42,472 bases of DNA, taken from positions 1 to 42,472 of IMG/VR virus record IMGVR_UViG_3300022220_000009, one strand, 5' to 3'. A program made the position numbers and the translations under genes. Below the pieces are notes generated by a model, which saw only the letters and a program-made list of their open reading frames with translations, made no database searches and was not told where the DNA came from. Shown piece by piece: positions 4,926-41,306 of the stretch. The number at the start of each line of letters is the position of its first letter. Positions within the stretch are counted from its first letter, which is position 1. The stretch comes from a virus.

Positions 4926-6436
4926 TGAAAATTATGGACTGGATCGCAGGTATTGCCGGGTACGTCACCAGGCGCACACCCACTGCATTGCAACTTTATC
5001 GTAAGACCCGCACCGGGGGCGGCTTCAATGCCGCCGATAGCGGTGACCGGTTCGCCGATTGGGTGACCGGCCCTAGTGGTCCCAACGAGTTTATCCGCCC
5101 GATCTTAAAAAGATTGCGAGCTCGGTCGCGTGATCTTGCGATCAACAACGATTACATGCAGAAGTATTTGAAGATGGTGTCAAACAATGTCATCGGACCT
5201 ACGGGCGTTAAAATGCAGATGAAGATCGAGGACAGTCCCGGCGTCTTGGATCGCATAGCCAACCAGAAAATAGAAGATGCCTGGAATGAATGGTCGAGAG
5301 TTTCCAATGCCTCGGTCACCGGTGACTTGTCGTTCCTCGATATGGAAAAACTTGCTGTCCAGACTGTGGCGCGAGACGGTGAGGTGCTGATCCGCAAGGT
5401 GAGCGGTTTCGACAATCCATTCAAGTTTGCCCTGCAGTTCATTGAGGCGGATCACCTGGACGAGAATCACAACCACAATCAAGCGAACGGTAACAAAATC
5501 AGATCCGGCATTGAGTTTGACCAATGGGGCAGCCCTGTCGCCTATCACCTGCTTACAGTCCACCCTGGAGACTCAGACCAAACCCAAACGCGACAACGGG
5601 TGACTCGCGTCCCAGCAGACGAAATTATCCACTTATTCATGAAGCAGCGCCCAGGCCAGGTGCGCGGTGTTCCTTGGGCGCATTCGAGCATGGTGCGCCT
5701 TAAGATGATTGGCGGATACGAAGAAGCAGAACTCACCGGAGCCCGCGCTTCGGCATCGAAGATGGGCTTTTTCGAGCGTGAGGCTGAGGGCGGTGAGTAT
5801 CAGGGCGACGATAAGGACACTGACGGCAATATGGTTTCCGAGTTTGCCCCCGGAACGATGGAAACACTGCCCATGGGCGTGACGTTCAAGCCCTTCGACC
5901 CAGGCAACCCGTCCTCGAATTTTAAGGATTTCATGAAGACCATGCTTAGGGGTGCCGCATCCGGCCTCAACGTTGCTTACAACACGCTGGCAAACGACTT
6001 GGAAGGCGTTAATTTTTCATCCATCCGGTCCGGTGTCCTTGAGGAGCGTGAGAACTGGAGAGCCGCCCAACGCTGGGTTATCCAACATTTTCATGAAGAG
6101 CTGTTTGGTGACTGGCTGACCATGGCCCTACTTAGTGGTCAGGTCAATCTGCCGATGGCGAAGTTTGAAAAATTCAACCGGGCTGACTGGCAACCGCGTG
6201 GATGGTCGTGGGTGGATCCCAAAAAGGACGTGGAATCCAATGTAATCGCGATCAACAACAAACTCAAATCCCATACTGAAATTGTGGCGGAACAAGGCAA
6301 AGACCTCGAGGATGTGCTGAACCAGATCAAGGCTGATGAAGAGCTGGCCGCGCAGATCGGAGTCGATTTGAAAGCTGTTGTGGAACCCAAAAAAACCGAA
6401 GAACCAAAAGAAGAGGACACAAAAGATGAGAATTAA
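4925..6436 (+). CDS. Portal protein, lambda gpB family (503 aa)
   Basis: The portal forms the dodecameric ring at the unique capsid vertex through which DNA enters and leaves. Family features include the N-terminal arm with ALQLYRKTRTGGGF, ARSRDLAINNDYMQKYLKMVSNNVIGPTGV (residues about 60-90), a central region with FIEADHLDENHN and KQRPGQVRGVPWAHS, and ASGLNVAYNTLANDLEGVNFSSIRSG near 345-370. It is close to lambda gpB in length and has an acidic C-terminal tail. The start overlaps the upstream stop (TAATG) and the stop overlaps the protease-capsid start by 11 bases. Confidence 0.93.
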   Translation: MKIMDWIAGIAGYVTRRTPTALQLYRKTRTGGGFNAADSGDRFADWVTGPSGPNEFIRPILKRLRARSRDLAINNDYMQKYLKMVSNNVIGPTGVKMQMKIEDSPGVLDRIANQKIEDAWNEWSRVSNASVTGDLSFLDMEKLAVQTVARDGEVLIRKVSGFDNPFKFALQFIEADHLDENHNHNQANGNKIRSGIEFDQWGSPVAYHLLTVHPGDSDQTQTRQRVTRVPADEIIHLFMKQRPGQVRGVPWAHSSMVRLKMIGGYEEAELTGARASASKMGFFEREAEGGEYQGDDKDTDGNMVSEFAPGTMETLPMGVTFKPFDPGNPSSNFKDFMKTMLRGAASGLNVAYNTLANDLEGVNFSSIRSGVLEERENWRAAQRWVIQHFHEELFGDWLTMALLSGQVNLPMAKFEKFNRADWQPRGWSWVDPKKDVESNVIAINNKLKSHTEIVAEQGKDLEDVLNQIKADEELAAQIGVDLKAVVEPKKTEEPKEEDTKDEN

Positions 6437-8375
6437 AACTGGAAAACTTCACCGCGAGGCCGCATTCGACCGGGCAACCGTCAACGCAGAAAGCCGGACG
6501 GTGGAGTTGTCCTTTTCATCAGAAGATCCCTATGAAAGATATTTTGGGATTGAGATCCTGGACCATAGCCCTGAAGCCGTGAGGCTGAAACGCATCAAGA
6601 GCAGCGGACCGTTGCTTATGGATCACAACTCGCGTGACCAGATTGGAATAATCGAGAATGTAACAATCGGCGAAGACCGCAAAGGGCGGGCGACAGTGCG
6701 TTTTGGGAAAAGTGCACGCGCCGAGGAAGTTTTTCAAGATGTGCTGGACGGTATCCGCGGAAATGTGTCCGTCGGGTACATCATCCACACCATGAAACAA
6801 GAGGAAGTTAATAAAGACGCGCCGGACGTGTTCCGCGCCATGGACTGGGAACCGCTGGAAGTCAGCCTGGTTTCCGTCCCTGCGGATATTACCGTGGGCG
6901 TCGGTCGAGATAACCAAAACGATTACGAAACAGAAGTGATCGACAACCAAGAGGACAAAGAAATGCTTATTGAAAAAAAGAATTTTGAAAATTTAGACGC
7001 TGACAAAGGCGACGCGGCAGGTGCTGCTGCTGCTCCTACCGTCGCTCCCCCTCCGGTGGTAACACCGGAAGCTCGCCAGGTTGAGACTGTCAACGTGGAT
7101 AAAATCGTCGAAGAAGCCACGCGATTGGAGCAGGAACGTATCCGGGAAATCACTTCCATCGGCAGCAAAATGGGTCAGCAGACCTTGGCGGAGACGGCCA
7201 TCAGTTCCGGTATGTCTCTCGACCAATTCCGCGGCCAGGTGCTGGACGGCATGAAACCCAATTCGGAAGTGAGCACCACGGACCCGAGCATCGGACTGAC
7301 CAAAAAAGAGTCTTCCGATTTCTCCATTATCCGCGCCATCAACTCCATTCTCTCTAAGGGCGATTTGTCTCTCGCTCCGTTTGAGAAAGAAGCCTCTCGA
7401 GCGGTGGAAAAGAAGATGGGGAAAAGCGAGGAAGAGCGCCGGTTCAGCGTGCCTTTTGATGTCCTGACTCACAAGCGCGACCTGGTGTCCAACATCGATC
7501 CTTCCGGGGGTTACCTGGTGGGCGTTGGAGCACAGGGGCAGTCCTTCATTGAGCTGCTACGCAACAGCATGATGGTCAACCAGATGGGGGCGCGGATTCT
7601 GGACGGTCTGGTCGGGGATGTATCAATCCCGAAGCAATCCGGAGGTGCCACGGCTTACTGGGTGGATGAGCAGGAGGCGCCGACGGAAAGCCAGCAGTCT
7701 TTCGGTCAGGTCTCCATGTCTCCAAAAACCATCGGAGCGTATACCGACATCTCGCGGCGACTGTTGTTACAGTCCAGCCTTGATATTGAGAGCTTCGTCC
7801 GCCAGGACCTGGCGACGGTTATCGCTCTCGCCATGGACCTGGCTGCCATCAACGGCGCTGGAGTCAACGGCGAGCCGAAAGGCATCTTGAATGTCACCGG
7901 CATCGGCAGTGTGGCAGGCGGCACCAACGGGGCAGTCCCGACCTGGGCGCATATCGTTGATCTGGAGAAGGAAGTCTCCAAAGACAACGCGCTTATGGGA
8001 ACCATGGGCTACCTGTCAAATTCCGACATCGTTGGTAAGATGAAACAGACCGTTAAGGCAACTAATACCGGCCTGTTTATCATGACCGGTCCCAACGGAC
8101 AGGACGGCTTCCAGGAAATGAACGGCTATCGAGTAGGCGTTTCCAACCAGGTGCCGAACAACCTGACCAAAGGTTCCGGAACAGACCTGTCTGCCATCAT
8201 CTTCGGCAATTGGGCTGATCTGATGATCGGTTACTGGGGCTCTGCGGATGTCCAGGTTGATCCATATACTGGCGGGTTGGCGGGCACGGTTCGTGTTCGA
8301 ATCCTGCGAGATACGGACATCCAGGTGCGTCACGCTGAGTCGTTTGCATCGATGCAGGACGCAATCACAGTTTAA
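6426..8375 (+). CDS. Prohead protease-major capsid fusion (649 aa)
   Basis: Residues 1-160 are an HK97-type prohead protease (S78/U35 clan). His67 in LLMDHN, Ser115 in RGNVSVGY and Glu145 in PLEVSLVSVPAD fit the HK97 triad H65/S114/E148. Residues about 165-350 are charged and helical with a Pro/Ala-rich linker, like the scaffolding delta domain. From about 360 it is an HK97-fold capsid protein: GGYLVG, SIPKQSGGATAYWVDE, ISRRLLLQSSLDIESFVRQDL, and a C-terminal RVRILRDTDIQVRHAESF. Protease, scaffold and capsid are thus one polypeptide, presumably released by self-cleavage. ATG 6426 lies inside the end of the portal gene. Confidence 0.93.
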   Translation: MRIKTGKLHREAAFDRATVNAESRTVELSFSSEDPYERYFGIEILDHSPEAVRLKRIKSSGPLLMDHNSRDQIGIIENVTIGEDRKGRATVRFGKSARAEEVFQDVLDGIRGNVSVGYIIHTMKQEEVNKDAPDVFRAMDWEPLEVSLVSVPADITVGVGRDNQNDYETEVIDNQEDKEMLIEKKNFENLDADKGDAAGAAAAPTVAPPPVVTPEARQVETVNVDKIVEEATRLEQERIREITSIGSKMGQQTLAETAISSGMSLDQFRGQVLDGMKPNSEVSTTDPSIGLTKKESSDFSIIRAINSILSKGDLSLAPFEKEASRAVEKKMGKSEEERRFSVPFDVLTHKRDLVSNIDPSGGYLVGVGAQGQSFIELLRNSMMVNQMGARILDGLVGDVSIPKQSGGATAYWVDEQEAPTESQQSFGQVSMSPKTIGAYTDISRRLLLQSSLDIESFVRQDLATVIALAMDLAAINGAGVNGEPKGILNVTGIGSVAGGTNGAVPTWAHIVDLEKEVSKDNALMGTMGYLSNSDIVGKMKQTVKATNTGLFIMTGPNGQDGFQEMNGYRVGVSNQVPNNLTKGSGTDLSAIIFGNWADLMIGYWGSADVQVDPYTGGLAGTVRVRILRDTDIQVRHAESFASMQDAITV

Positions 8376-8390
8376 TCTTTTAACCTTGGT

Positions 8391-8408
8391 GGGGCGGTTG
8401 ACCGTCCC
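8391..8408 (+). terminator. Hairpin after the capsid gene
   Basis: GGGGCGG (8391-8397) pairs with CCGTCCC (8402-8408), with one G-T pair and a TTGA loop. Only a weak T-tract follows (TTCCTTG). It is more likely a partial terminator or an mRNA-stabilising hairpin between the highly expressed capsid gene and the next gene. Confidence 0.45.
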
Positions 8409-8431
8409 TTCCTTGAACCTCTGAGGTAACA

Positions 8432-8650
8432 ATGAAAGTTAAATTTTTGCGAAATGTATCAGCGGCTGGCATTCATTATGAGGCCGGCTCGGAAAGTGAA
8501 CTGCCGGAGAGTCAGGCGAAAACCCTGATCACCATGAATAAGGCCGCAATGTGTATGGAACCGGCTCCTCAGCTTGTTAAACCGGCTGATCAACCCAAAC
8601 CCAAACTGGAAACCCGCAAGGGGGACCGATTCAAGAATAAGGAGAAGTAA
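8432..8650 (+). CDS. Small phage protein downstream of capsid (72 aa)
   Basis: It has a compact N-terminal beta domain (MKVKFLRNVSAAGIHYEAGS followed by LPESQAKTLI), of a type often found after phage capsid genes, and a Pro/Lys-rich charged tail. There is no catalytic motif or membrane segment. It is preceded by CTGAGGTAAC as ribosome binding site and is followed three bases later by the next gene. A virion or assembly role is plausible from position only. Confidence 0.7.
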   Translation: MKVKFLRNVSAAGIHYEAGSESELPESQAKTLITMNKAAMCMEPAPQLVKPADQPKPKLETRKGDRFKNKEK

Positions 8651-8653
8651 ATT

Positions 8654-9091
8654 ATGAATTACCCTGCAAAAGATTTAATCAACGCCCTCGGTGTCTCGAT
8701 GGATGTGGCTTCCCAGGTTTTAACTGCTGACGCGAACGGGGCCGGGGTTGATCTTATTGACCACGAGTCCTGCATGTTTGTCGGTCTGATCGGTGCCAGC
8801 GGCGACACCTTGAGCGGCTCCGTATATCTGGAGCTCGAGATCGAGGAAAGCGTGGACAACTCGACCTGGACGGATGCGGCTGACGCGGATGTCCGTGACG
8901 TTGTAGTCGGCACCAACCCCGGCACCTTCGCTTTGATCGACGATCCTGCAGAGGATGTGTTGGTCTATAAGGCGCAGTATGTCGGAAAAAAACGGTATGC
9001 ACGATGCGTGGTCAACCTCACGGGAACCCACACGAACGGCATCCCGGTTGCAGTCCTGGCCATTCGAGGCGGGAAGACGGAACAGCCATAA
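8654..9091 (+). CDS. Putative virion structural protein (145 aa)
   Basis: A beta-rich protein with NGAGVDLIDHESCMFVGLIGA near residues 28-50, then LELEIEESVDNSTWTDAADAD, a pattern common in phage head-region proteins that compare measured and expected properties of a beta sandwich (ESDDGSTWTDV-type). The strong ribosome binding site GGAG is at 8641-8644. A capsid-decorating or fibre role is possible, based only on its position after the capsid gene. Confidence 0.65.
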   Translation: MNYPAKDLINALGVSMDVASQVLTADANGAGVDLIDHESCMFVGLIGASGDTLSGSVYLELEIEESVDNSTWTDAADADVRDVVVGTNPGTFALIDDPAEDVLVYKAQYVGKKRYARCVVNLTGTHTNGIPVAVLAIRGGKTEQP

Positions 9092-9092
9092 G

Positions 9093-9404
9093 ATGGCCTT
9101 CGTTGAGAGTATGGATTATTTTTTTAATACGGATGACTTCGCCGAGACGGGGATCTATACCCCGTCCGGCGGGTCGCCGGTTAATATCAGCCTTATTTTC
9201 GACGACGAGTCCCAGTTCCAGCGCGTTGATGCGGGTGTGGACATCGAGGCAACGACACCAACTGCTCTCGTTAAATCTTCCGACGTTTCTGGGGTTGCCG
9301 AGGGAGACACTCTGACAATCCGTGGCGTTATTTATACGGTAGTCGGTGCACCGGTAAGAGACAGCAACAACTCAATATATAAGTTACAACTGAAAGGACC
9401 TTAA
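9093..9404 (+). CDS. Head-tail joining protein, gpFII-like (103 aa)
   Basis: The N-terminus FVESMDYFFNTDDFAETGIYT followed by a predicted beta barrel (VNISLIFDDE, GDTLTIRGVIYTVVG) matches the pattern of phage head-tail joining proteins of the lambda FII type, which sit under the connector and bind the tail. ATG 9093 is used because it follows directly after the preceding stop (TAAGATG); the open frame extends further upstream through the preceding gene, which is not expected to be used. Confidence 0.7.
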   Translation: MAFVESMDYFFNTDDFAETGIYTPSGGSPVNISLIFDDESQFQRVDAGVDIEATTPTALVKSSDVSGVAEGDTLTIRGVIYTVVGAPVRDSNNSIYKLQLKGP

Positions 9405-9406
9405 CC

Positions 9407-9769
9407 ATGGTTGGCACAGTGACTTTTCAAAGAAAACAGGCAGGACCCAGGCAAAGAATTGTTTTCGACTGGATTTCAGACGCATCTGGGAACGCAGATG
9501 TTACGACGGGCGCCAAACTCACCGGCGCGGCTGTTCTCGCGATTTTTATACCGGACACGGTTGATGTCCCGACGACCCTTTACGATGTAACTATCACAGA
9601 CGAAGACGGCGTTGACGTGTTGCAGAACCAGGGCCTTGACCGAAGCGTTGCAGTTATTGAAGAGCAGGCGGTCAGCTTCGGAAACGTGTTCAACTCGCTT
9701 TTGACTCTCAACGTTTCAAACGCAGGGAATGCAAAAAAAGGAAAAGTCATTTTAGAAATGGAATTCTAG
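9407..9769 (+). CDS. Hypothetical structural protein (120 aa)
   Basis: It is predicted to be all beta, with VLAIFIPDTVDVPTTLYDVTITDEDGVDVL in the middle and NAKKGKVILEMEF at the C-terminus. It has no Cys, membrane segment or catalytic motif. GAAAGGACC precedes ATG 9407, and the previous stop is two bases upstream. This type of small beta protein appears commonly in connector and neck regions of siphovirus late operons; a specific function is not assigned. Confidence 0.65.
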   Translation: MVGTVTFQRKQAGPRQRIVFDWISDASGNADVTTGAKLTGAAVLAIFIPDTVDVPTTLYDVTITDEDGVDVLQNQGLDRSVAVIEEQAVSFGNVFNSLLTLNVSNAGNAKKGKVILEMEF

Positions 9770-9800
9770 CAAAGGTAGCTACACGCAAAAGGATATGTGA

Positions 9801-11792
9801 ATGAAGTACCTAAACAGCTCGCAAGAACTATACCGTCGCGTAAAGAGAATTTACGACGTTGATCCGAATTTATTACCGGCGCAAGTCAAGACACTTTATG
9901 AGTCTCATTTCGGCGGCGGCGTGACGCCATTTTCTCCAGATCAACTGACGAATATTGTCGGCTTCCTTGACTCAAAATTCGGGATAACCTACAACGGCGT
10001 TGACATGGCAAGCTGGGCGAGCAGGAATGGCCTCCTGGCTGTTGCCGCACAGATCACAGCGTCGGCCCAACCTTTCGTTCAACCGGAAGCCCTTGGAGAT
10101 GCTCCAGGCATCGAGTTTGACGGGTCTGAATTCCTTGAAATCCCCTACCATGCAGACTTGAACACCCAGGAATATACGGTTCTGGTGGTGGGACGTGAAT
10201 TCAGACAAGCGACTTCCGGTTATTATACGACTAACCCCGGCTCATCTGTTAATAGCGGCGGGATGGGCATCTCCACCAACAACACAAGGCTCCTTCGGCA
10301 TTATGTGTCTGATACGGTTACCAATGTAATAACAGAGGTTAGTGGGACCAAGGTCATCAATCAATGGAACGATTTCTACCAATTGAGACGAGCGGACAAT
10401 ACGGCCCAGTCTTTTTCTAATAGCATGGGGATAGCCAGCCCCAGTAAAGCAACGACTCTAGTTTATCCCGGAACTGACGTTATTCGGATTGGCCGAATAT
10501 ACGGCGGAACTGCAGCGCTTGAAATAGTAGGGCAGATTCGCGGAATAATTGTAGTTAAGAGTGAATTAACCGGCGACGATTTGACCAATACCCTCGCATG
10601 GGTCGCAGCCAATTGGCTTAATACCGAATGGACTCAGATCATTTTCTTTGGCCTCAGTACGAACGCCGTTGCCTCCGGGAATACAATCGCCTGTAATGGG
10701 CTGGGTGCTTCCTCGTATTCTGAGGGTGCCATCGGCCATTTGTTCTTGAAAGGTGATGGGGTCGTAGAGTTTACCAGCCAGGGAATAACGTCTGGGACAA
10801 GCCGTAATATAATGGGCTTATCAAGAGACGATCCAGACTTCAATTATACATCGATAGATTTTGGCCTTCAGAATAATGATGCGACTGGCTTCCCGTGGGA
10901 AAATAACAGCGCGAAGACTGACACCGGCGCGGTTTCCATAACCGGTGATCGATGGTCGATTGAAGTCGCTTCAAACGTTGTGACCTATAAAAGGAATGGT
11001 GTCACATGGTATACGTCGCTCAATACCCCGTCATATCCGCTGATTCTTGACTGCTCTATGTTCGGGACAAGAACGGTTGAGATGAGAAACGTTCGGGTGA
11101 AGGGTTCGGGATGGGAAATAAACCCGGAGCGGTATGGAACGGTACTATATCATTTTGACGCGAATTTAAATATTACGTTGAACGGCGCCGACATTTCAGC
11201 TTATGGGGATAGCAGCCTTCGGTTGGAAGATATCTCGATGGGCGTTGCCGCAAACCAACCCTTATACAATTCGGCGGACGCTGACTTCAACGGCCATGCC
11301 TCCTTGGAGTATGACGGCGCAACCGAGTATCTCCAACGGGGAACATTCTTTGCTGGGGCTTATTCTCAACCCCAGACTCAATTCCTTGTTTTCAAGCTTG
11401 CAACTACGACCGGGATCATAAATATCATGGATTCTGGGTCTGGATCAGCAAGACATACGGTTTATGTTGACCCTGGCGGAAAGATTTTAGCATTCGCTGG
11501 GGCATCATCACCAGCCACTCTTGTAGCAGACACAGACACCCATATTATGGTTGTTAAGTGGAATACCGCGACTTCGGTCTTGTACTTAGACGGAGGCACT
11601 GGCGTTGGGTCAAATCTTAGCACCCACCAAATGAATGGATACACCCAAGGCGCCCGTTATGATGGCGCTCAAAATTGCGCGGTCAAGGTAGCCTCGGATA
11701 CCATGATCGACGTTCTCATGACCGACGCCGAGATCAACGAGTATGGAAGTATGTTGGCGACCAAGTATGGAACAACCTGGACCGATATTTAA
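9801..11792 (+). CDS. Large virion protein with lectin-like domains (663 aa)
   Basis: Three beta-sandwich segments can be seen. Residues about 75-270 look like a LamG/concanavalin A-type domain (PGIEFDGSEFLEIPYHADLNTQEYTVLVV, then WNDFYQLRR). Residues about 275-440 resemble the GDGYVEF-type repeat of bacterial surface proteins (FLKGDGVVEF, NIMGLSRDDPDFNYTSIDFGL, YKRNGVTWY). Residues about 450-663 are a second LamG-like domain (FNGHASLEYDGATEYLQRG, ILYLDGG-type segment). The first 50 residues may anchor it. Such domains bind carbohydrate or protein. Position between connector genes and the gpU-like gene suggests a head or neck fibre. GC is lower than its neighbours. Confidence 0.75.
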   Translation: MKYLNSSQELYRRVKRIYDVDPNLLPAQVKTLYESHFGGGVTPFSPDQLTNIVGFLDSKFGITYNGVDMASWASRNGLLAVAAQITASAQPFVQPEALGDAPGIEFDGSEFLEIPYHADLNTQEYTVLVVGREFRQATSGYYTTNPGSSVNSGGMGISTNNTRLLRHYVSDTVTNVITEVSGTKVINQWNDFYQLRRADNTAQSFSNSMGIASPSKATTLVYPGTDVIRIGRIYGGTAALEIVGQIRGIIVVKSELTGDDLTNTLAWVAANWLNTEWTQIIFFGLSTNAVASGNTIACNGLGASSYSEGAIGHLFLKGDGVVEFTSQGITSGTSRNIMGLSRDDPDFNYTSIDFGLQNNDATGFPWENNSAKTDTGAVSITGDRWSIEVASNVVTYKRNGVTWYTSLNTPSYPLILDCSMFGTRTVEMRNVRVKGSGWEINPERYGTVLYHFDANLNITLNGADISAYGDSSLRLEDISMGVAANQPLYNSADADFNGHASLEYDGATEYLQRGTFFAGAYSQPQTQFLVFKLATTTGIINIMDSGSGSARHTVYVDPGGKILAFAGASSPATLVADTDTHIMVVKWNTATSVLYLDGGTGVGSNLSTHQMNGYTQGARYDGAQNCAVKVASDTMIDVLMTDAEINEYGSMLATKYGTTWTDI

Positions 11793-22450: not shown

Positions 22451-22717
22451 ATGACCGATGACGAACTGCCTGCAACCAAAGGCGACCTGCTGAAAATGGA
22501 AGAGCGAGTTAAGGAAACCATCAAGCTAACTGTTAAACCTGTGGTCGAGGACGTTGATGGCCATAGGAAAACGCTCTATGGGGATGATGGTCGTGGGGGT
22601 CTTACTAAAGACGTTGGAATCTTGAAATGGACACTTGGGGGGATAGTCACCGGCATCGGTGGGGTTGTCGTATCAATTTGGGACAAAATCAAACACGCTT
22701 TTCTTGGGCATCATTGA
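22451..22717 (+). CDS. Holin or XhlA-like single-TM protein (88 aa)
   Basis: An N-terminal charged coiled-coil-like region (ATKGDLLKMEERVKETIKL), a middle DDGRGGLTKDVGILKWTL, and one C-terminal membrane segment (LGGIVTGIGGVVVSIWDKI, about 60-79). This layout resembles XhlA-type and other small phage membrane proteins near lysis genes. It is the last gene of the late operon, where holins often lie, but no adjacent endolysin was recognised, so the lysis role is tentative. Confidence 0.5.
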   Translation: MTDDELPATKGDLLKMEERVKETIKLTVKPVVEDVDGHRKTLYGDDGRGGLTKDVGILKWTLGGIVTGIGGVVVSIWDKIKHAFLGHH

Positions 22718-22751: not shown

Positions 22752-23849
22752 TTATTCACAATCAGTCTCTTCGAATGTGCCGTCGTTTTTTGGGAAAAAC
22801 TCCTTACAAACAAACAAGTTCCGAGGCAGTGGATTTTTTGCCCAATGATTGTGAACTAAAATGGGTTTTTCCTCTCTTGCAAAATACATAGCAGCACTAA
22901 CAGTTTTATTTTTATTTTTATTCCAAAATCCATTATTTTCGTAAGATAGTAATCTCTTTTCTTTGTTATCTTTTGGCAACAGAACGGCCAGATCACCATA
23001 AAATGCCGAAATAAACCTTTTTTCATCTGATGCATAAATATTATCATGATGAAAAATTACTATCCCTGGTTTTTCGTCTACTTGTTTATTTGCACTCTTA
23101 AACTGGTCACTCGCTTTTGATGACCTATCACGAAAGATTTCTACGTTATTTGACACTCCAACGTCAGTCAACTGGATAGAGCGAATTCTAAATTCATCTT
23201 CCGCGCCCATCAATTCAATTGAAATACGAAAGTTGGTCTCATTATAAAGTCCCAACTCATGTAAACCACTTTGCATTTCTGTTGATATATTACCGTTAGT
23301 ATTAATAATTATTGCATCAGTGCCGAATTTAAGACTGTCTCCCAGATAAGCTCGACTGTACTTTCCACACTCAGATTTGACTGCGTATAATAACTCCTTC
23401 CCTTCGTTTGTTTCGTACTTGATCTGTATAAATTCATTGAAGCTAGGAACAGGATCTTTTGGGATAACTACATAGTGTTTGGTATTCTCGAGTGTTGACA
23501 AAGATGTATTTGAAAGAACCTTATTCACCATAGATAAAGCTTTTCTTATGTCTTTTTGTAAGTCCTTTTTAGGGATATTCAAAGTAACCATTACATAGAT
23601 TTCCCCAGGGACAGTAACTATTTTTTTTCGAGAATCAAACTCGTCTCTACACCATTTTTGAAATTCATGGCGTTTAGGGTAGTCAACTGTCTTAACTTCT
23701 ACCCAAAAGCTATGACCGTTCTTTTTACATAGAAAGTCCGGATTTTTTGTTCCTGTATCTAGTTTTAGTTCAGAGTCTGTAGTAACCATAAACCCTTGAC
23801 CATTTAACCAGTCAGCAGTTTTATCGTTATAGCTCAACCCATCTATCAT
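22752..23849 (-). CDS. Orphan PD-(D/E)XK nuclease-like protein (365 aa)
   Basis: Leftward gene with ATG at 23849 and the strong ribosome binding site AGGAGGAAG upstream. Residues 37-53 have PD (37-38), then E51-V-K53 in the hydrophobic strand HSFWVEVKT, the PD-(D/E)XK nuclease core, within an N-terminal domain of about 100 aa. The remaining 260 aa were not recognised; they include HYVVIPKD and a late VIFHHDN segment. The gene is notably AT-rich compared with the tail genes and sits alone against the late operon, next to the restriction operon. It may be a defence or superinfection-exclusion nuclease; this is inference. Confidence 0.65.
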   Translation of the reverse strand: MIDGLSYNDKTADWLNGQGFMVTTDSELKLDTGTKNPDFLCKKNGHSFWVEVKTVDYPKRHEFQKWCRDEFDSRKKIVTVPGEIYVMVTLNIPKKDLQKDIRKALSMVNKVLSNTSLSTLENTKHYVVIPKDPVPSFNEFIQIKYETNEGKELLYAVKSECGKYSRAYLGDSLKFGTDAIIINTNGNISTEMQSGLHELGLYNETNFRISIELMGAEDEFRIRSIQLTDVGVSNNVEIFRDRSSKASDQFKSANKQVDEKPGIVIFHHDNIYASDEKRFISAFYGDLAVLLPKDNKEKRLLSYENNGFWNKNKNKTVSAAMYFAREEKPILVHNHWAKNPLPRNLFVCKEFFPKNDGTFEETDCE

Positions 23850-24035
23850 TTGATGTTCTTCCTCCTATCTAATTCACTTCACACTCTGTCTACTGCTTGG
23901 CTTTTAAATCCTGTTCGTCTTGGTGATTTAAGCATAACCGGTCTATTAGTCAAGTGGTGGGCGTCAATCGGTGGGCTATCTGGAATCACTGCATGGATTG
24001 CTCAATGGTGGAGAGATATGGATGATTGCGAGTAA

Positions 24036-24384: not shown

Positions 24385-25941
24385 ATGTCACTCAGTGAAA
24401 CATTACAGCAACTAGAAAACCGTTTGTGGAGCACGGCGGATCAACTCCGGGCCAATTCCAATCTCACCTCCCAGGAATATTCCCCTCCAGTGCTGGGATT
24501 AATTTTCCTACTATATGCCGATCACCGGTTCACACAGGCGGAAGCAAAGCTAAAGGGAAAAGGATCAGGCCGCCGATCCATTGGTAAAGCAGATTACCAG
24601 GCTAAAGGAGTCCTCTATCTTCCCGAAAAGGCGCGGTTCAGTGAAATTCTGGCTCTACCCGAGGGGGCTGATCTCGGAAAGTCATTAAAGGAGGCCATGG
24701 AAGCAATTGAGGAAGAAAATCCTGACCTGAGGGATTCACTCCCTAAAACATATTCCCGCCTGGATAATTCAACGATTGCGGAATTGCTCCGAATCATGGA
24801 CAGCATCTCAAGGGATATTGAAGGGGATGCCTTTGGCAAAATCTACGAATACTTCCTGGGTAATTTTGCCATGGCCGAGGGATCACTTGCTGGAGAGTTT
24901 TTTACCCCCACCCCTATCGTTAAGCTCATTGTAGAAATCATCGAACCCTATCACGGGAAAATTCACGACCCCGCCTGTGGTTCCGGAGGCATGTTTGTCC
25001 AAAGCGCAAAGTTTGTGGAGGAACACAAAAACAACCCCCTCGATGAAATCTCTATCTATGGGCAGGAAAAGACTCTGGCCACGGTCCACCTCTGCAAAAT
25101 GAATCTGGCCGTCCACGGCCTGGGTGGAGATATACGGCAGGGCAATGCCTATTACGAGGATTTACACCAGGCCAAAGACAAATTTGATTTTGTGATGGCC
25201 AATCCACCGTTCAATGTAAACGGGGTGGATAAAGAGAGGCTGAAAGATGATAAGCGGTATCCGCTGGGATTCCCTCGGACCGATAATGGCAACTACCTTT
25301 GGATTGAATTATTTTATTCTAGCCTGAATGAAACGGGCCGCGCCGGATTTGTCATGGCAAATTCTGCCAGTGATGCGAGAAGCTCCGAAGCCGATATAAG
25401 AGAAAAGCTGATCAAAGACAAGGCCGTCGATGTTATGGTCGCGGTCGGACCGAATATGTTCTATACCGTCACTCTTCCAGTGACTCTCTGGTTTTTGGAT
25501 AGAGGCAAAAAGGGTACGGATCGGGAAGATAAAATCCTCTTCATAGACGCTCGGCATATTTTTCATCAAATCAAACGTCGCCTAAGAGAGTTTACGCCTC
25601 AACAGATTGAATTTCTCTCAAACATTGTCCGTCTGTATCGGGGAGAGGAACCAGAAAACAAGCACGACAGCGCGGAATTGATGAGTGAGAACTTTCCCGA
25701 TGGGAAATATGTGGACGTGTTGGGCCTGTGCAAGGTGGCTACTTTGGAGGAAGTGGGGGCGCAAGGTTGGTCGCTCAATCCAGGCCGTTATGTTGGCGTG
25801 GCTGATCAGGACGAAGAAGAGCATGATTTTCAGGAGCGGCTCTTTGAACTCAATGATGAGTTTCAGGAATTGACACTAAAAGCTCATGAGCTTGAAGTAA
25901 AGATCTCTGGAAATTCATACAGGATACTTGAGAGGAATTGA
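24385..25941 (+). CDS. Type I restriction-modification DNA methyltransferase (518 aa)
   Basis: The modification subunit transfers methyl groups from S-adenosylmethionine to adenine in the recognition site. Motif I is [10 protein letters not shown] near residue 195, and the catalytic motif IV is NPPF at about 273, both within the N6-adenine methylase domain. The N-terminal helical domain (about 1-150, with [21 protein letters not shown]) is the usual HsdM bundle. Length 518 aa is typical. The good ribosome binding site AAGGAGGAACTTGGAG precedes ATG 24385. Its TGA overlaps the hsdS ATG, so M and S are coupled. Confidence 0.95.
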
Positions 25942-27200
25942 TGCAAAATTCCACTTTTAACATGAACGAGCTTTGCGACATTACTTCAAGCAAGCGAATT
26001 TATGCGGCCGACTATAAATCAGACGGTATTCCCTTTTATAGGGGAAAAGAAATAACTGAAAAGTACCGAGGAAATTTGGATGTCTCGGTAGAGCTTTTTA
26101 TCGATCCAGTTAAGTTTGAGCAAATTCGAGCTAAATTTGGTGTGCCTGTGGCTGGTGATCTTCTTTTAACTTCTGTGGGTACTCTTGGATCACCATACGT
26201 GGTCAAAGAAGGAGAAGAATTTTACTTTAAAGATGGAAATTTAACTTGGTTCAGGAATTTCAAGGGCCTCGATAGTCGCTTCCTATACTATTGGCTCCAA
26301 TCACCAAAAGGCAAAGCGGAACTAAAGAAGTGTATTATTGGGTCTTCGCAATCGGCTTATACTATTAATTTGTTAAAGAAAATGGAGATATTACTCCCCC
26401 ACATTTCTACACAGAGAACAATTTCAGCAATACTTTCAACTTATGATGACCTGATTGAAAATAATCAGAAAAGAGTCAAGATTTTGGAGGAGATGGCGCA
26501 AAGCCTTTACAGCGAATGGTTCGTCCATTTCCGCTACCCAGGCCACGAAAGCGCTTCCCTTACCGACAGCCCTCTCGGTCCTATTCCAGAAGGGTGGGAA
26601 GTATCAAAATTTTCAGAAGTGGTATTTATTGACCCCCAGACTATTGTTGCAAGAGACGGGGAAAAACCTTTCGTTCCAATGACAAGTTTATCAATAAATT
26701 CGATGGTGATTAATGCTATTCAATATAGAGATGGGAATAGTGGTTCTAAATTTAGAAAGGGAGATACGTTGCTCGCACGAATCACGCCCTGTTTGGAAAA
26801 TGGGAAGACAGCATACGTTTATGAATTGCCTCTAGATTATGATGTCGCCTTTGGTTCTACAGAATTTATTGTCCTTCGTTCTAAAAAACTATGCCCTGAA
26901 TATGTTTATCTTTCTGCGAGATCAGAAGAATTTAGAAACATTGCAATAAAAAGTATGACGGGAGCCACTGGAAGGCAACGTGTTCAAAAGGAGTGCTTTG
27001 ATAAAATCTTGATTGCTTGTCCTACATTAGATGTTATTAAAGCCTTTTCAGAAATTGTATCGCCAATATTCAATTTGATTCATGTATTAAATGATAGAAG
27101 ATTAAATCTTTGTGAAGCGAGAGACCTTCTTCTTCCAAAACTTATTTCAGGTGAATTTGAGGTTTCCGATGAATTCATGTCCAAGGAGGACGCGGCATGA
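25941..27200 (+). CDS. Type I restriction-modification specificity subunit (419 aa)
   Basis: HsdS names the two half-sites recognised by the complex. Two target recognition domains are seen: TRD1 at about 1-150, with IYAADYKSDGIPFYRGKEI, and TRD2 at about 215-360. Between them is a central conserved helix (about 152-203, with ILSTYDDLIENNQKRVKILEEMAQSLYSEWF), and at the end a second helix (about 360-410). The TRD sequences decide the target and vary widely, so the recognition site cannot be predicted here. ATG 25941 is favoured over the upstream in-frame TTG at 25938. Confidence 0.93.
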   Translation: MQNSTFNMNELCDITSSKRIYAADYKSDGIPFYRGKEITEKYRGNLDVSVELFIDPVKFEQIRAKFGVPVAGDLLLTSVGTLGSPYVVKEGEEFYFKDGNLTWFRNFKGLDSRFLYYWLQSPKGKAELKKCIIGSSQSAYTINLLKKMEILLPHISTQRTISAILSTYDDLIENNQKRVKILEEMAQSLYSEWFVHFRYPGHESASLTDSPLGPIPEGWEVSKFSEVVFIDPQTIVARDGEKPFVPMTSLSINSMVINAIQYRDGNSGSKFRKGDTLLARITPCLENGKTAYVYELPLDYDVAFGSTEFIVLRSKKLCPEYVYLSARSEEFRNIAIKSMTGATGRQRVQKECFDKILIACPTLDVIKAFSEIVSPIFNLIHVLNDRRLNLCEARDLLLPKLISGEFEVSDEFMSKEDAA

Positions 27201-28060
27201 AGATTTCAGAAAGGACCATCAAGCGTTTGGGGGAAATTATAACGGGAGATAAGGTCCTTTCACCGTATCGGTCAGGATCTAAGCTTGTTCAGTTTTTTAA
27301 TGAGTTTGGCACAAATGCAGTTTACAAGAAGGGGTTTCCTTCAAGATGGAATTTTGCTGAAGACTGTATCCGACATTTTAACGATACCCCAATTCTTAAG
27401 CAGATTATTTTATCTTCTATTGATCCAAGAGATTATATGGACCAAACTGTATTTGATTATGGGACACATCAGAATAAGACCTTAAATATTGATGATGCTA
27501 TTACTTATTTGAATGATTTCCTTTCCTATGATGGCTATGAAATCGTTCCTCATGGAAGGCAATACGATATTAAAGACATTCAAGCCGGCGAGATTTTATT
27601 TGAACACGAATTAGACCCGAATGTGATATCCCATGCTTTTTTATCTGAACAGATTGATAAATGCCGAACCAAGATAGGACAAAACGATTTTGATGGAGCC
27701 ATAACAAACGCTCGATCTTTAATAGAAGGTGTGCTCACCAGCATTGAGAAAGAGTGTGATTCTGATGCTCCCGACTATGATGGAGAATTACCCAAACTTT
27801 ATAAGCGAGTCCAAAAATACTTAAATCTTGCCCCTGATAATCCCAAGATTGATGAGAACCTTAAGCAAACTCTCCGAGGTTTCATTAATATCATTAATGG
27901 GCTTTCGGGACTAAGCAATAGGATGGGAGATAGGCACGTTCGAGAATTTAAACCATCTAAGCATCATGCTTCTCTATTAGTTAATAGCGCGATGACCTTC
28001 TGCAATTTTATTTTTGATACTTACGCTTATCAAAAAACAAATAAAGGCCAGGATGCATGA
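27197..28060 (+). CDS. Abi_C-like protein within the restriction operon (287 aa)
   Basis: The C-terminal half (about 150-285) has the Abi_C (AbiJ-like abortive infection) pattern: ITNARSLIEGVLTSIEKE, LPKLYKRVQKYLNLAP, LKQTLRGFINIINGLSGLSNRMGDRHVREF, and a final HHASLLVNSAMTF helix. The N-terminal half (about 1-140) is unassigned. ATG 27197 and the overlap on both sides (four bases each) place it inside the operon between specificity and restriction genes. In known AbiJ-type proteins, this domain is linked to phage exclusion, but its role here is unknown. Confidence 0.8.
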   Translation: MKISERTIKRLGEIITGDKVLSPYRSGSKLVQFFNEFGTNAVYKKGFPSRWNFAEDCIRHFNDTPILKQIILSSIDPRDYMDQTVFDYGTHQNKTLNIDDAITYLNDFLSYDGYEIVPHGRQYDIKDIQAGEILFEHELDPNVISHAFLSEQIDKCRTKIGQNDFDGAITNARSLIEGVLTSIEKECDSDAPDYDGELPKLYKRVQKYLNLAPDNPKIDENLKQTLRGFINIINGLSGLSNRMGDRHVREFKPSKHHASLLVNSAMTFCNFIFDTYAYQKTNKGQDA

Positions 28061-31000
28061 GCCACCGGGACAGTGAAGATGCGCTTGAGAATGCGGCCTT
28101 GGGAGTGTTTCAGGAATTGGGCTGGAATGTTCTCAATTGTTATGGGGAGTTTGACCAAGGCAAAAGCACCCTTGACCGTGACAATAAAAGTGAAGTTCTT
28201 TTGTTTGAAAAGCTCTGGCCTAAATTACAAGAACTCAATCCCTCCCTTCCCCAAACAGCATTTGAGCAAGCTATTGAAGAGCTCTCCCGCAATCGTACCG
28301 TGATGTCGTTAGGGGCGGCTAATCAAGAAATATACAAACTCCTCAAAGACGGCATTCGAGTTAAAGTCCCTAATCCAATAGGCCAGGGCAATATGGATGA
28401 GATTGTCCGCCTGATCGACTGGGAGAATATCGGGAATAATGACTTTTTTATGGCCCAACAGTTCTGGGTTGCAGGAGAACTCCATACACGCCGCGCTGAT
28501 CTGGTTGGGTTCGTGAACGGAATCCCTCTGGTGTTCATAGAACTCAAAGCCTCCCACCGAAGTTTGGAAGCGGCCTTCAATGGCAATTTGCGGGATAACA
28601 AAGACACCATCCCCTATCTGTTGGCCTATAACGGATTCATCGTCCTTTCCAATGGCCGAGAAGCCAGGACCGGTTCGGTTACGGCAGCCTTTGAACATTT
28701 CTCGGAGTGGAAGCGGATTAATGAAGAGGGAGAAAAGGGAGTCATCTCTCTGGATACAATGATCCGCGCCACCTGCGAACCTTCCCGTCTTTTGGATATT
28801 GTCGAAAACTTCACCCTGTTTATGAACACCAAAGGTGGCCTGGCCAAACTGTTATCCAAGAATCACCAATATCTTGGAGTCAATAACGCTATCCAAAACT
28901 TTCACGCTCTTCGGTCTTCAACTCAACCTAACGATAAAGGCCGGTTGGGGGTCTTCTGGCATACGCAAGGGTCTGGCAAATCTGTTTCCATGATCAACTT
29001 TGCCCAGAAGGTGCTTCGCAAGAAACCCGGAAACTGGACCTTTGTAGTTGTGACGGATCGGGATGATTTGGATACCCAGATTTATAAGAACTTTGCCAAT
29101 TGTGGTGTAGTAACAGAGAAAGAAGCGCAGGCCGAAAGCTCCCGGCATTTACGACAATTATTAGGAGAAAATCATCGGTATGTTTTCACCCTGATCCAGA
29201 AATTCAGAACGGAAAATGGAGAGACCCATCCCGTTTTATCCCAGCGGGACGATATTATTGTGATTGTCGATGAAGCACACCGAAGCCAGTATGATACCTT
29301 CGCCGTTAATATGCGGACGGCTCTTCCCAATGCTTCCTTTATCGCCTTCACCGGAACGCCGTTGATTTCAGGAGAAGATGAGGTCACCCGTGATGTATTC
29401 GGGGATTACGTCAGTATTTATGATTTCCGGCAATCGGTCGAAGACAAGGCCACCGTGCCATTGTTCTATGAAGGCCGGATTCCCGAACTGCAACTGACCA
29501 ACCTGAATCTGGATAAAGATATCGAACAAGTGATTGATGAGGCCGAACTGGACGAAAACCAGGAAGAAAAGCTGGAAAGGTATTTCGGCAAGGAATATCA
29601 CATCCTGACACGGGAAGACCGGCTGGACCAGGTGGCAGAGGATATTGTCGAACATTTCACTGGCCGGGGTTATCAGGGCAAGGCCATGATGATTAGTATA
29701 GACAAGGCCACTACCGTCCGCATGTACGATAAAGTCCAAAAATACTGGCAAAAGAAAACTGAAATTCTGCGCAGTGCAATCGAATTAGCTAAGACGGAGG
29801 CACAAAGAAGAGCCCTTTCCGACCAGATCCATTCAATGCAGGAAACGGATATGGCGGTCATTGTTTCCCAATCCCAGAATGAAATCGATGATATGCGTCA
29901 AAAAGGGTTGGATATAAAGCCTCACAGGGAACGAATGAACAATGAAGACTTGGAGGAGACCTTCAAGGACCCGGAGAGCAAACTCAGAATAGTCTTTGTT
30001 TGCGCCATGTGGATCACCGGATTTGATGTTCCTACTTGTTCTACCATGTACCTGGACAAACCCATGCGAAACCATACCCTCATGCAGACCATCGCCAGGG
30101 CAAACCGTGTGGCTCCAGGCAAGGAAAGCGGATTGATTGTTGATTATGTCGGGATATTCCGCAACTTGGAGAAAGCCTTGTCCATTTATGGTCCGGGTAA
30201 GGAGGGAGAAGTTAAAGGAACATCTCCCGTTGAAGATAAACTGGCACAAATTGAACGCTTAAGAGTTGCACTGGGAGAAGCCAAAGAGTTTTGCGCTGGC
30301 CTGGGAGTAACCATTCAATCTATTTTGTCGGCTGTAGGATTTGAGCGTGAAAAACTGAAGATGGATGCTGTGGATGCTCTTCTAGCAAATGATTATATCA
30401 GGAACAAGTTTTTGAGCTTGTCCAATCAGGTAGTACGGCTCCATAAAGATATTAAACCTCACCCTTCCGCCAATGAGTTTATGTCGGAAGTCATTATCTA
30501 TTCTGTTCTGGCTCAAACCATACGCTCCATGATGCTAGCCCCTGATATATCCGCCGTGATGGAACAGATTGAAGAGATACTTGATCACTCTATTATCGCT
30601 GAGGAGACGGCCATTTATCAACGGATGGGAGACGACACAAAACTTATTAACCTATCTGAAATTGATTTTGAAGCATTGCAGAAAAAGTTCTCAAATGGTC
30701 ATAAAAGGACAGAAGTCCAAAAACTTCGGGCTCAGGTTGAGAAGAAGATCACGGAAATGGTTCAATTAAACCGGACCCGGATGAATTTTCTGGAGAAGTT
30801 CCAGCAACTGATTGAAGAGTATAATGCCGGAAGCCTTGGTATAGATCAGATATTTGAAGAACTTGTCCGGTTATCCCAATTATTGAATGAAGAAGAGAAA
30901 AGAGCTGTTAAGGAACAGTTAAGTGAAGAGGAGCTTGCAGTGTTTGATCTCTTGACCAAGCCTGACCCCAAACTGGAACCTAATGAGGAAAAACAAGTAA

Positions 31001-31227
31001 GAGCTGTGGCCAAAACACTGGTAGAGATTATCGAAGGATTGAACCTCATGCATGGGTGGAGAAGCCGCCAGCAATCCCGCGCCAAGGTAAAAGTTGAAAT
31101 TGAAACGGCTTTGGATGGAGGTCTTCCTGAAGTTTATGACCGCACCTTATTTTCCCGAAAATCTGAAAGTGTTTACCAACATATTTTCGAGGCTTATTCG
31201 GGGGATAGAATGAATATTTATCTGTGA
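28057..31227 (+). CDS. Type I restriction-modification endonuclease subunit (1056 aa)
   Basis: HsdR translocates and cuts unmodified DNA. An N-terminal nuclease has RRADLVGFVNGIPLVFIELK near 144-165 (D and E-x-K of PD-(D/E)XK). The SF2 motor follows: Walker A, HTQGSGKS, near 301-308; DEAH near 404; AFTGTP near 430; and QTIARANRV at about 680. A C-terminal helical region of about 200 aa would bind the methylase core. Length is usual for the family. Start and the Abi_C-like stop overlap. The operon seems intact; no frameshift is visible. Confidence 0.95.
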   Translation: MSHRDSEDALENAALGVFQELGWNVLNCYGEFDQGKSTLDRDNKSEVLLFEKLWPKLQELNPSLPQTAFEQAIEELSRNRTVMSLGAANQEIYKLLKDGIRVKVPNPIGQGNMDEIVRLIDWENIGNNDFFMAQQFWVAGELHTRRADLVGFVNGIPLVFIELKASHRSLEAAFNGNLRDNKDTIPYLLAYNGFIVLSNGREARTGSVTAAFEHFSEWKRINEEGEKGVISLDTMIRATCEPSRLLDIVENFTLFMNTKGGLAKLLSKNHQYLGVNNAIQNFHALRSSTQPNDKGRLGVFWHTQGSGKSVSMINFAQKVLRKKPGNWTFVVVTDRDDLDTQIYKNFANCGVVTEKEAQAESSRHLRQLLGENHRYVFTLIQKFRTENGETHPVLSQRDDIIVIVDEAHRSQYDTFAVNMRTALPNASFIAFTGTPLISGEDEVTRDVFGDYVSIYDFRQSVEDKATVPLFYEGRIPELQLTNLNLDKDIEQVIDEAELDENQEEKLERYFGKEYHILTREDRLDQVAEDIVEHFTGRGYQGKAMMISIDKATTVRMYDKVQKYWQKKTEILRSAIELAKTEAQRRALSDQIHSMQETDMAVIVSQSQNEIDDMRQKGLDIKPHRERMNNEDLEETFKDPESKLRIVFVCAMWITGFDVPTCSTMYLDKPMRNHTLMQTIARANRVAPGKESGLIVDYVGIFRNLEKALSIYGPGKEGEVKGTSPVEDKLAQIERLRVALGEAKEFCAGLGVTIQSILSAVGFEREKLKMDAVDALLANDYIRNKFLSLSNQVVRLHKDIKPHPSANEFMSEVIIYSVLAQTIRSMMLAPDISAVMEQIEEILDHSIIAEETAIYQRMGDDTKLINLSEIDFEALQKKFSNGHKRTEVQKLRAQVEKKITEMVQLNRTRMNFLEKFQQLIEEYNAGSLGIDQIFEELVRLSQLLNEEEKRAVKEQLSEEELAVFDLLTKPDPKLEPNEEKQVRAVAKTLVEIIEGLNLMHGWRSRQQSRAKVKVEIETALDGGLPEVYDRTLFSRKSESVYQHIFEAYSGDRMNIYL

Positions 31228-31598: not shown

Positions 31599-32591
31599 CT
31601 ACCTCACCACCCGCTCCGTCTCCTGCTTAGCCTTGGAGTTCAGTTCACTCTCGTAAACATCGCGGTGTTGGTCGAACGCGGAGGTCAGCCATGAGAGGCT
31701 TTCCTGGATGGAGAACTTTGGTAGGGCGGTGGAATGCGTATCCAGTTCGATAGCCTTCGCCAGTTGGCGGTATTGAGCGGCTTCTTCTTTGTCGCGCTTG
31801 GTACGTAAGACTTCGAATGCGTGGGCTAGTGAATTGTAGACGCTGACCAGTCCGCGTTTGTTTCCTACCAACTGAAATTTAGATTCAGCTTCTGCGAAAT
31901 GCTTTGTTGCCTTCGAGTAATCCTTTTTTGCTACGTGCAGATTACCCAAGCCTAGAGAGACATTACCCAAGCCCTCATGATTGCTTGAAGCCTCGTAATG
32001 CTTTTGCGCTGTGAGGAAGTGTTGTCGCGCGGAATTGAAATGCTTTCGAATCAAATGCAGCTGCGCCAGGTTTACGTGAGAGTAACCTAACCCATTCGAA
32101 TCTTCTACTAAGTCAAAGTAGCTGATGCTTTTATGAAGTTCACGCTGGGCAGATTTATAGTCCCTGGTTCTCGTGCGCAGAATCCCCAGCTCCGTAAAAG
32201 CATTCCCCAACCCTCTATTATCTTCCTTAATGGTGAATTTCCCGATTGCTTCCTTGTATGCGTCTTCCGCTTCTGCGAACTGCCCTTTTACTCTTAAAGT
32301 GTTGGCTCGCGCTAGGAGGGCTTGACCGGTCTTTTGGGAGTAGTCGGTTTTCGTAATGGATGCGAATTTGGAGTAGGCTGTCGATACCGCTTCTTTGGCC
32401 CACTGGCGAAAATCGGGATTATAGTAAGCGTAGGCACTAGTAGTAGAGAGGAGGGCCACTAAAACAGTCAGCTTGATATGTTTTAAGAAGAAACTGGCTT
32501 TACGGCGTGGATTGTAGGCAGATGGGAAGTCAACCAAGTCACTTTGGTTTACCTTGGCTTTGAGTCTCCTTAAATATTCGCCTGCATTCAT
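31599..32591 (-). CDS. Membrane-anchored TPR protein (330 aa)
   Basis: Residues 1-30 are charged; a hydrophobic segment at about 39-55 (HIKLTVLVALLSTTSAYA) looks like a membrane anchor or uncleaved signal peptide. From about 90 to 270 there are several tetratricopeptide repeats of about 40 aa, e.g. GQFAEAEDAYKEAI, GNAFTELGILRTRTRDYKSAQREL, GNVSLGLGNLHVAKKDYSKATKHF. Start ATG 32591 is chosen over TTG 32597: GAGG lies ten bases before it. It sits between the restriction operon and the repressor, a usual place for lysogenic-conversion genes. Partner unknown. Confidence 0.75.
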   Translation of the reverse strand: MNAGEYLRRLKAKVNQSDLVDFPSAYNPRRKASFFLKHIKLTVLVALLSTTSAYAYYNPDFRQWAKEAVSTAYSKFASITKTDYSQKTGQALLARANTLRVKGQFAEAEDAYKEAIGKFTIKEDNRGLGNAFTELGILRTRTRDYKSAQRELHKSISYFDLVEDSNGLGYSHVNLAQLHLIRKHFNSARQHFLTAQKHYEASSNHEGLGNVSLGLGNLHVAKKDYSKATKHFAEAESKFQLVGNKRGLVSVYNSLAHAFEVLRTKRDKEEAAQYRQLAKAIELDTHSTALPKFSIQESLSWLTSAFDQHRDVYESELNSKAKQETERVVR

Positions 32592-32720
32592 TTTCAAATA
32601 TCCTCAAAGGGATTTACTGGAATTTTAAGTTTATCGAGTAAAGATGTCAAGGAGTGGGATTATTCCTTTAAATAGGCCAGCGGCAGGTTAAGAATAGACG
32701 TCTCGAAATTACTGATTTTA

Positions 32721-33164
32721 TTAACCAATAATCCGTTTCAATAACTTCTCCTTCAGGGATAGTTTTTTGTTCAGGATTTTATCGCCAGTTTGCTTGATGT
32801 CCTCAAGAATCCTGTCTTGAGCTTCAGCATCACCCTCATCAATTATTAGGTCAAGGTGATCATGAAGCATCTTGATATGGGTTTCCAGTTCAGTTAAAGC
32901 CTTCCTATGTTCCTCATTATTCTCAACAACCTTCTTTGAAACTTCAATATTCGCTTTTTTTTCGCCTTTGCCCTCTAGCAACCATGTAGGATGAACCTCG
33001 AAATAATTTGCTAACTTCCCCAAGTGCAAGGCTGTAGGTTTCCTTTCATCGCGCACGTATCTACTGAGGCCACTAGACGAAATCCCCGTTTTTCTAGATA
33101 TTTCAGCGGGTCTAACATCATTTTCTGTTATCAGCATCTTTAGGCGATCTGCAAATGATTCCAA
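32721..33164 (-). CDS. XRE-family repressor, CI-like (147 aa)
   Basis: The N-terminal part is an XRE helix-turn-helix (PAEISRKTGISSSGLSRYVRDERKPTALHLGKLANYFEVHPTWLLEG), followed by helical, coiled-coil-like residues and a basic C-terminus (KLSLKEKLLKRIIG). There is no S24 peptidase domain, so RecA-stimulated self-cleavage is not expected. The frame extends to ATG 33218, but that start sits directly on the predicted -10 box; TTG 33164, nine bases after GGAG, is preferred. It probably represses the divergent early genes. Confidence 0.8.
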   Translation of the reverse strand: MESFADRLKMLITENDVRPAEISRKTGISSSGLSRYVRDERKPTALHLGKLANYFEVHPTWLLEGKGEKKANIEVSKKVVENNEEHRKALTELETHIKMLHDHLDLIIDEGDAEAQDRILEDIKQTGDKILNKKLSLKEKLLKRIIG

Positions 33165-33192
33165 AAAAGAGTGCTCCAAAGAAAAAAACAAG

Positions 33193-33223
33193 TTGACAAT
33201 TTCCCCATATGAGGACATATTAT
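33193..33223 (+). promoter_or_regulatory. Rightward early promoter, divergent
   Basis: TTGACA (33193-33198) is a perfect -35 on the plus strand, with TATTAT (33218-33223) at a long 19-base spacing, or other AT-rich hexamers at 17. It overlaps the leftward promoter, so the two could be controlled by one operator. Confidence 0.45.
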
Positions 33224-41195: not shown

Positions 41196-41306
41196 GAATA
41201 TTTAAGCTAGAACAACCTAATGAAATCAGCCCTTTCAAAGAATGTGTTAAAATCCCCGCGTTGGATTAAAAGGCGTTTCCGGTCTACTCTTCAGGAGGAG
41301 ACAGAC

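Follow-up and report, generated by a model that had tools for sequence, protein, structure and literature searches.

The gene P0001 appears to be a moron of a temperate phage that encodes a stand-alone anti-phage PD-(D/E)XK nuclease of the PD-T7-1/PD-T7-5 superfamily; this is the favoured explanation, and it is held with fair confidence. As a very divergent relative of PD-T7-1 and PD-T7-5, P0001 is probably a weapon of the resident virus against its rivals, and its product would probably guard the host cell of the resident phage from them. Superinfection exclusion by a resident prophage, one of two roles proposed in the initial annotation, would likely be a fair description of its effect.

The sequence analysed, referred to below as the window, is a linear virus record of IMG/VR with a length of 42,472 bp. 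The positions of the main features are given in Table 1.

Table 1. Features of P0001 and of its surroundings in the window.
Feature	Position	Strand	Basis
P0001, PD-(D/E)XK protein, 365 aa	22752..23849	(-)	ORF, ATG start; remote homology to PD-T7-1/PD-T7-5 superfamily
Ribosome binding site AGGAGG of P0001	23861..23866	(-)	sequence; 11 nt upstream of ATG
Predicted catalytic motif region, P37-D38 to E51-V-K53	23691..23741	(-)	motif; aligned with family PDF...E
Insertion in nuclease core, residues about 60-238, mostly unrecognised	23136..23672	(-)	E-to-helix-K distances
C-terminal family part, residues 240-345: core helix with K245, strand KPGIVIF, AFYGD, NGFW, VSAA	22815..23132	(-)	profile alignments
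Family motif HNHWAKNPLP, residues 333-342	22824..22853	(-)	profile alignments
HsdM, type I methylase, neighbouring cassette	24385..25941	(+)	domain/defence profile matches
HsdS, specificity subunit, neighbouring cassette	25938..27200	(+)	domain/defence profile matches
AbiJ-like protein with Abi_C domain, between hsdS and hsdR	27197..28060	(+)	domain/defence profile matches
HsdR, type I restriction subunit, neighbouring cassette	28057..31227	(+)	domain/defence profile matches
Repressor	32721-33218	(-)	
Integrase	41220-42335		

The gene and its surroundings

The frame of P0001 is a real gene. The longest open frame in its region runs to 370 codons, compared with a maximum of 199 in 2000 shuffles, and codon-position bias is present. 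An in-frame TAG lies upstream of the ATG, and a longer start is therefore impossible. The initial annotation had described a protein of this length with PD at residues 37-38 and E51-V-K53, exactly as found here, and its own strong ribosome binding site is also confirmed.

The atypical base composition that had been reported is likewise apparent. P0001 has a GC content of 0.352 (GC3 0.31), compared with 0.53-0.57 in the terminase, portal, tail and fibre genes. Since the neighbouring hsdS (0.389) and Abi gene (0.374) are low as well, this is a property of the cassette and not of P0001 alone.

The position against the late operon and next to a restriction operon holds too. P0001 converges with the tail-fibre operon on one side and diverges from hsdM on the other, where the type I restriction operon stands; HsdM, HsdS, Abi and HsdR are confirmed in it. 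The virus has repressor and integrase genes and is therefore a temperate phage. Its nearest terminase relatives are found in Roseobacter phages, at 48% identity. An empty-site comparison with phages L003 and L005 found only head genes in common with the window phage.

A 5.6-kb contig from another sample (L004, IMGVR_UViG_3300022202_000031) shows 99.7% identity to positions 5762-11356 of the window. Thus, nearly the same phage has been sampled twice.

P0001 could be an accessory component of the adjoining type I operon, to which it is adjacent and divergent and whose hsdS and Abi gene have a similarly low GC. This is very improbable, however. The operon has all its parts without P0001 (HsdM, HsdS and Abi, plus an HsdR that contains a nuclease domain of its own), and no plasmid record, including those that carry similar operons, has a relative of P0001 detectable by tblastn. 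Restriction in the restriction-modification sense, the other role that had been proposed, is unlikely because P0001 has no methylase of its own, the only one adjoining it being HsdM of the complete operon, and because an HsdR is already present beside it. Although type II and type IV restriction endonucleases share a PD-(D/E)XK-type motif with P0001, it differs from them in lacking its own cognate methylase and in matching none of the Pfam, NCBIfam and PADLOC restriction-enzyme models.

Comparable type I operons with an abortive-infection gene can be found on an Allocoleopsis plasmid. In the window, a TPR-repeat protein, whose N-terminus probably forms a membrane segment, is encoded between the restriction operon and the repressor, at 31599-32597 (-); this is possibly another cargo gene. 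Small ORFs lie on either side of P0001, at 23850-24035 (+) and 22451-22717 (+). Their C-terminal ends are alike (KW...GGx.G...I..W), a weak resemblance with a pairwise E of 0.08. The ORF at 22451-22717 may be what is left of a small phage membrane protein that the cassette displaced.

Remote homology to the PD-T7-1/PD-T7-5 superfamily

Sequence searches of Pfam, NCBIfam and PDB gave no match to P0001, nor did tblastn against phages and plasmids, and no relative at the level of BLAST was found in phages, plasmids or 754 sampled genomes. Three borderline protein matches in these genomes (369 + 385, two classes) occurred at the chance rate and are of unrelated sequence. A peptide-pattern scan of genome contigs found no relative of P0001. 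The sole match to the peptide pattern in viral contigs (L002) is weak and crosses a stop codon between small ORFs. A DNA pattern for PD-x8-WVEVK retrieved 121 loci whose relatedness to P0001 is confined to the motif; these were reused as controls for profile specificity.

Existing profiles provide two leads. The PADLOC PD-T7-1 profile matches P0001 with an E of 7e-5, over residues 20-65 only (profile positions 173-218 of 452), and PHROG 8571 matches residues 25-62 with an E of 5e-4. Taken alone, these could have been a bare nuclease motif. Genome searches with PD-T7-1 and PHROG 8571 retrieve mostly identical genes, and the C-terminal motifs of the proteins that they encode are also visible by eye in P0001.

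Three further profiles, all made without P0001, were used as tests. A profile of 23 PD-T7-1/PHROG-8571 members gives an E of 7e-8, compared with 0.089 for the best shuffle (among 2004 sequences, 2000 of them shuffles), and aligns two blocks in the correct order, PDF...E and then HNHWAKNPLP. A profile of the sister group described below gives 2.2e-7, with residues 16-77 and 219-344 aligned. With each of these two profiles, the C-terminal part of P0001 scores above all shuffles by itself. Finally, a profile of 29 viral members gives 1.7e-4, with the ordered blocks PDF...E, GFWNKNKNKTVSAAMY and ILVHNHWAKNPLPRNLFV, of which the last two are each weak alone. All three profiles score P0001 above 2000 of 2000 shuffles, and the blocks are colinear.

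The specificity of these matches can be judged from a set of 5623 ORFs, 113 of which share the PD-x8-WVEVK motif of P0001. The best of them reached 10.5 bits, compared with 28.6 for P0001. Two hhalign matches, each weak alone, fall on different ends of P0001. The viral alignment picks up its N-terminal block (E 2.7e-4, probability 42%), and the sister group picks up residues 206-345 (E 1e-3, probability 21%).

In all profiles, the superfamily block PD[FILY]-x(n)-[hydrophobic]-x-E falls within residues 22-62 of P0001. The C-terminal blocks GF(F/W), VSA and HNxxAxxPL are also present in P0001, in order. A remote homology of P0001 to the PD-T7-1/PD-T7-5 superfamily is well supported, and the relationship is distant; P0001 does not give a full-length match to PADLOC PD-T7-1. 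The initial annotation had counted 260 unrecognised residues after the motif. A profile check of that region found the family blocks NGF(F/W), VSA and HNxxAxxPL, so part of it is not unknown: roughly the last 105-140 residues are recognisable by profile, and residues 60-238 are still mostly unrecognised.

PD-T7-1 was discovered by functional selection in E. coli, and it protects less strongly against T7 than against T-even phages (PMC9519451). In later work, it protected against a Teseptimavirus phage, and T7 plaques were smaller (PMC12409345). The phage relatives are PD-T7-1 by PADLOC (E 1e-112 to 4e-157). Since they match the PD-T7-5 model too, PD-T7-1 and PD-T7-5 belong together.

Members of the family are present in 53 IMG/VR contigs. 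In two P2-like contigs (L219 and L227) the family gene adjoins the portal gene; in L219 it lies between the replication endonuclease and the portal, at the P2 defence hotspot known from PMC9519451. The family gene of Morganella phage IME1369_01 is counter-oriented and adjoins a tail-fibre gene, a setting much like that of P0001. Relatives are also carried by other temperate phages.

The sister group, which was found via L157, occurs on plasmids of Acinetobacter, Pseudomonas, Cellulosimicrobium and Mycolicibacterium and in Bacteroidota genomes; no viral relatives of it were found. In the Acinetobacter baumannii plasmid pWM98-2 (L170:1-4164), its gene starts 3 nt downstream of consecutive CBASS cyclase, HORMA, TRIP13 and DUF6602 genes, and the nuclease may therefore be an additional CBASS effector.

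Other neighbours of family members include a type IV restriction enzyme and type II methylases. The 63 neighbour genes of 13 members matched 91 PADLOC models, compared with 16 for 63 control genes of the same genomes, a rough measure because the models overlap. One ORF (L183 ORF m2_5532) gives a second match to the family profile (E 6.6e-14) near another member in the same genome region.

The remote homology, the cargo position and the adjacency to restriction-modification and Abi genes all speak for the PD-(D/E)XK and defence readings of the initial annotation.

Anatomy of the protein and a modelled relative

Judging from its alignments, the core of P0001 is split by a large insertion of about 180 residues. 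Glutamate and helix lysine are 194 residues apart in P0001; in two plasmid relatives the figure is 133-138, and in four phage members it is 43-46. No relative with the whole insertion was found, and a comparison with the insertion of the sister group, using a profile of two sequences only, gave no match above shuffles.

Ten positions that are invariant in the family are kept in P0001: P37, D38, E51, K245, P261, F308, S318, N334, A337 and P340. The core-helix lysine lies five residues before an aromatic residue (K146/Y151 in the viral alignment, K245/F250 in P0001), in an alignment that is weak across the insertion. D38, E51 and K53 conform to the D ... E-x-K of the PD-(D/E)XK motif. K53 is an extra, since the relatives examined mostly have E-A-V or E-A-T at this place.

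PD-T7-1 (PADLOC PDLC04073; the same genes match PHROG 8571) shares with P0001 the colinear PDF...E, core helix lysine, GF(F/W), VSA and HNxxAxxPL. Both are single proteins encoded by counter-oriented cargo genes in temperate phages. P0001 differs from PD-T7-1 in having E-V-K instead of E-A-V/T, in the stretch from E51 to K245, which is about 150 residues longer, and in lacking the N-terminal segment, and only 46 of its residues are covered by the PADLOC profile. PD-T7-5 (PADLOC PDLC04110) is matched by the PD-T7-1 relatives and by the sister group, and hence belongs to the same superfamily, but its model is not matched by P0001 at E <= 1. Closest to P0001 in layout is the sister group (L157, L170, L171, L172 and L173), which also has an insertion between the glutamate and the helix. 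Unlike P0001, it has E-A-x rather than E-V-K and an N-terminal region of about 80 residues, and its insertion is shorter and dissimilar.

In the viral members, the N-terminal helical segment of the family contains an invariant Q, R and E. P0001 lacks this segment, and none of the upstream frames encodes it. P0001 may therefore be impaired. Together with the change of the family motifs Y(L/F)YG and HNP to AFYG and HNH, this would fit a truncated or decaying member of the superfamily that is no longer functional. Such decay is nevertheless unlikely, given an intact frame of 365 codons that is far above chance length, a strong ribosome binding site, codon-position bias, the retention of D38, E51 and K245, and the gain of K53.

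A single-sequence AlphaFold2 model of P0001 was unusable (pLDDT 31.7). Because MAFFT misplaces the C-terminal half of P0001 across the insertion, a viral relative, L247, was modelled in its place (AlphaFold2, 29 sequences; pLDDT 90.4, pTM 0.91). The model contains, in order, a helix (59-74), two strands (88-92 and 95-105), a helix (124-149) and a strand (162-169). As modelled, this helix-strand-strand-helix-strand order is that of the PD-(D/E)XK core. D87 and E100 are near the two adjacent strands, and the invariant K146 is on the second helix.

The best Foldseek match of the model is an Hjc resolvase (probability 0.97 over 40 columns), which at an E of 0.16 is not significant; further nucleases are among the weak matches, none of them significant. 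For this reason, only layout and motif are used to assign the PD-(D/E)XK core.

Since Hjc resolvases head these weak matches and such enzymes occur in phages, P0001 might be a resolvase-like nuclease for the phage's own DNA metabolism, or a homing endonuclease, instead of a defence protein. This is quite unlikely, however, because P0001 is counter-oriented outside the replication and late operons, is low in GC and adjoins restriction-modification and Abi genes, and because relatives with the PD-T7-1 C-terminal blocks are found near defence genes on plasmids and chromosomes. No empty-site or intron evidence for homing was found.

Proposed action and significance

For an anti-phage nuclease carried as a moron, homology suggests the following scheme. 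P0001 would be produced from the prophage and would recognise some feature of the DNA of an incoming phage, or of the replication of that DNA. Its core would be discontinuous: the strands with D38 and E51-V-K53 would be followed by the insertion, the K245 helix, the KPGIVIF strand and a C-terminal part with NGFW, VSAA and HNHWAKNPLP. The protein would cut nucleic acid via D38, E51, K53 and/or K245, a catalysis predicted from the motif. It would act without a partner methylase, beside the restriction-modification and Abi operon.

Since no other part differs so much from group to group, the insertion is the obvious sensor candidate. It is possible, though improbable, that P0001 represents a separate clade in which a textbook E-x-K site is combined with a new phage-sensing domain inserted in the core, and self is told from non-self without a methylase.

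How single-protein DNase-like defences sense and answer phage without a methylase is unclear according to PMC9519451. The main text of that study reports direct immunity for 7 of 11 DNA-acting systems as a group number, and no assignment of PD-T7-1 by name was found there.

P0001 had been called previously undescribed. Both the sequence and the long insertion within it are indeed new, but the protein falls, as a divergent member, within a known superfamily. From the profile evidence, then, it is not wholly undescribed: it belongs, as a phage-borne protein, to a remote family of anti-phage nucleases that consist of one protein each. The insertion, the canonical lysine K53 and the missing N-terminus mark it as a new variant whose function is inferred.

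PD-T7-1, PD-T7-5, an unnamed plasmid group and the orphan P0001 are united here in one remote family. Defence profiles in current use overlook such divergent members. The invariant positions of the united family are now named and are open to mutation, and P0001 adds to them a canonical lysine missing in the relatives examined, together with an insertion that could hold a sensor.
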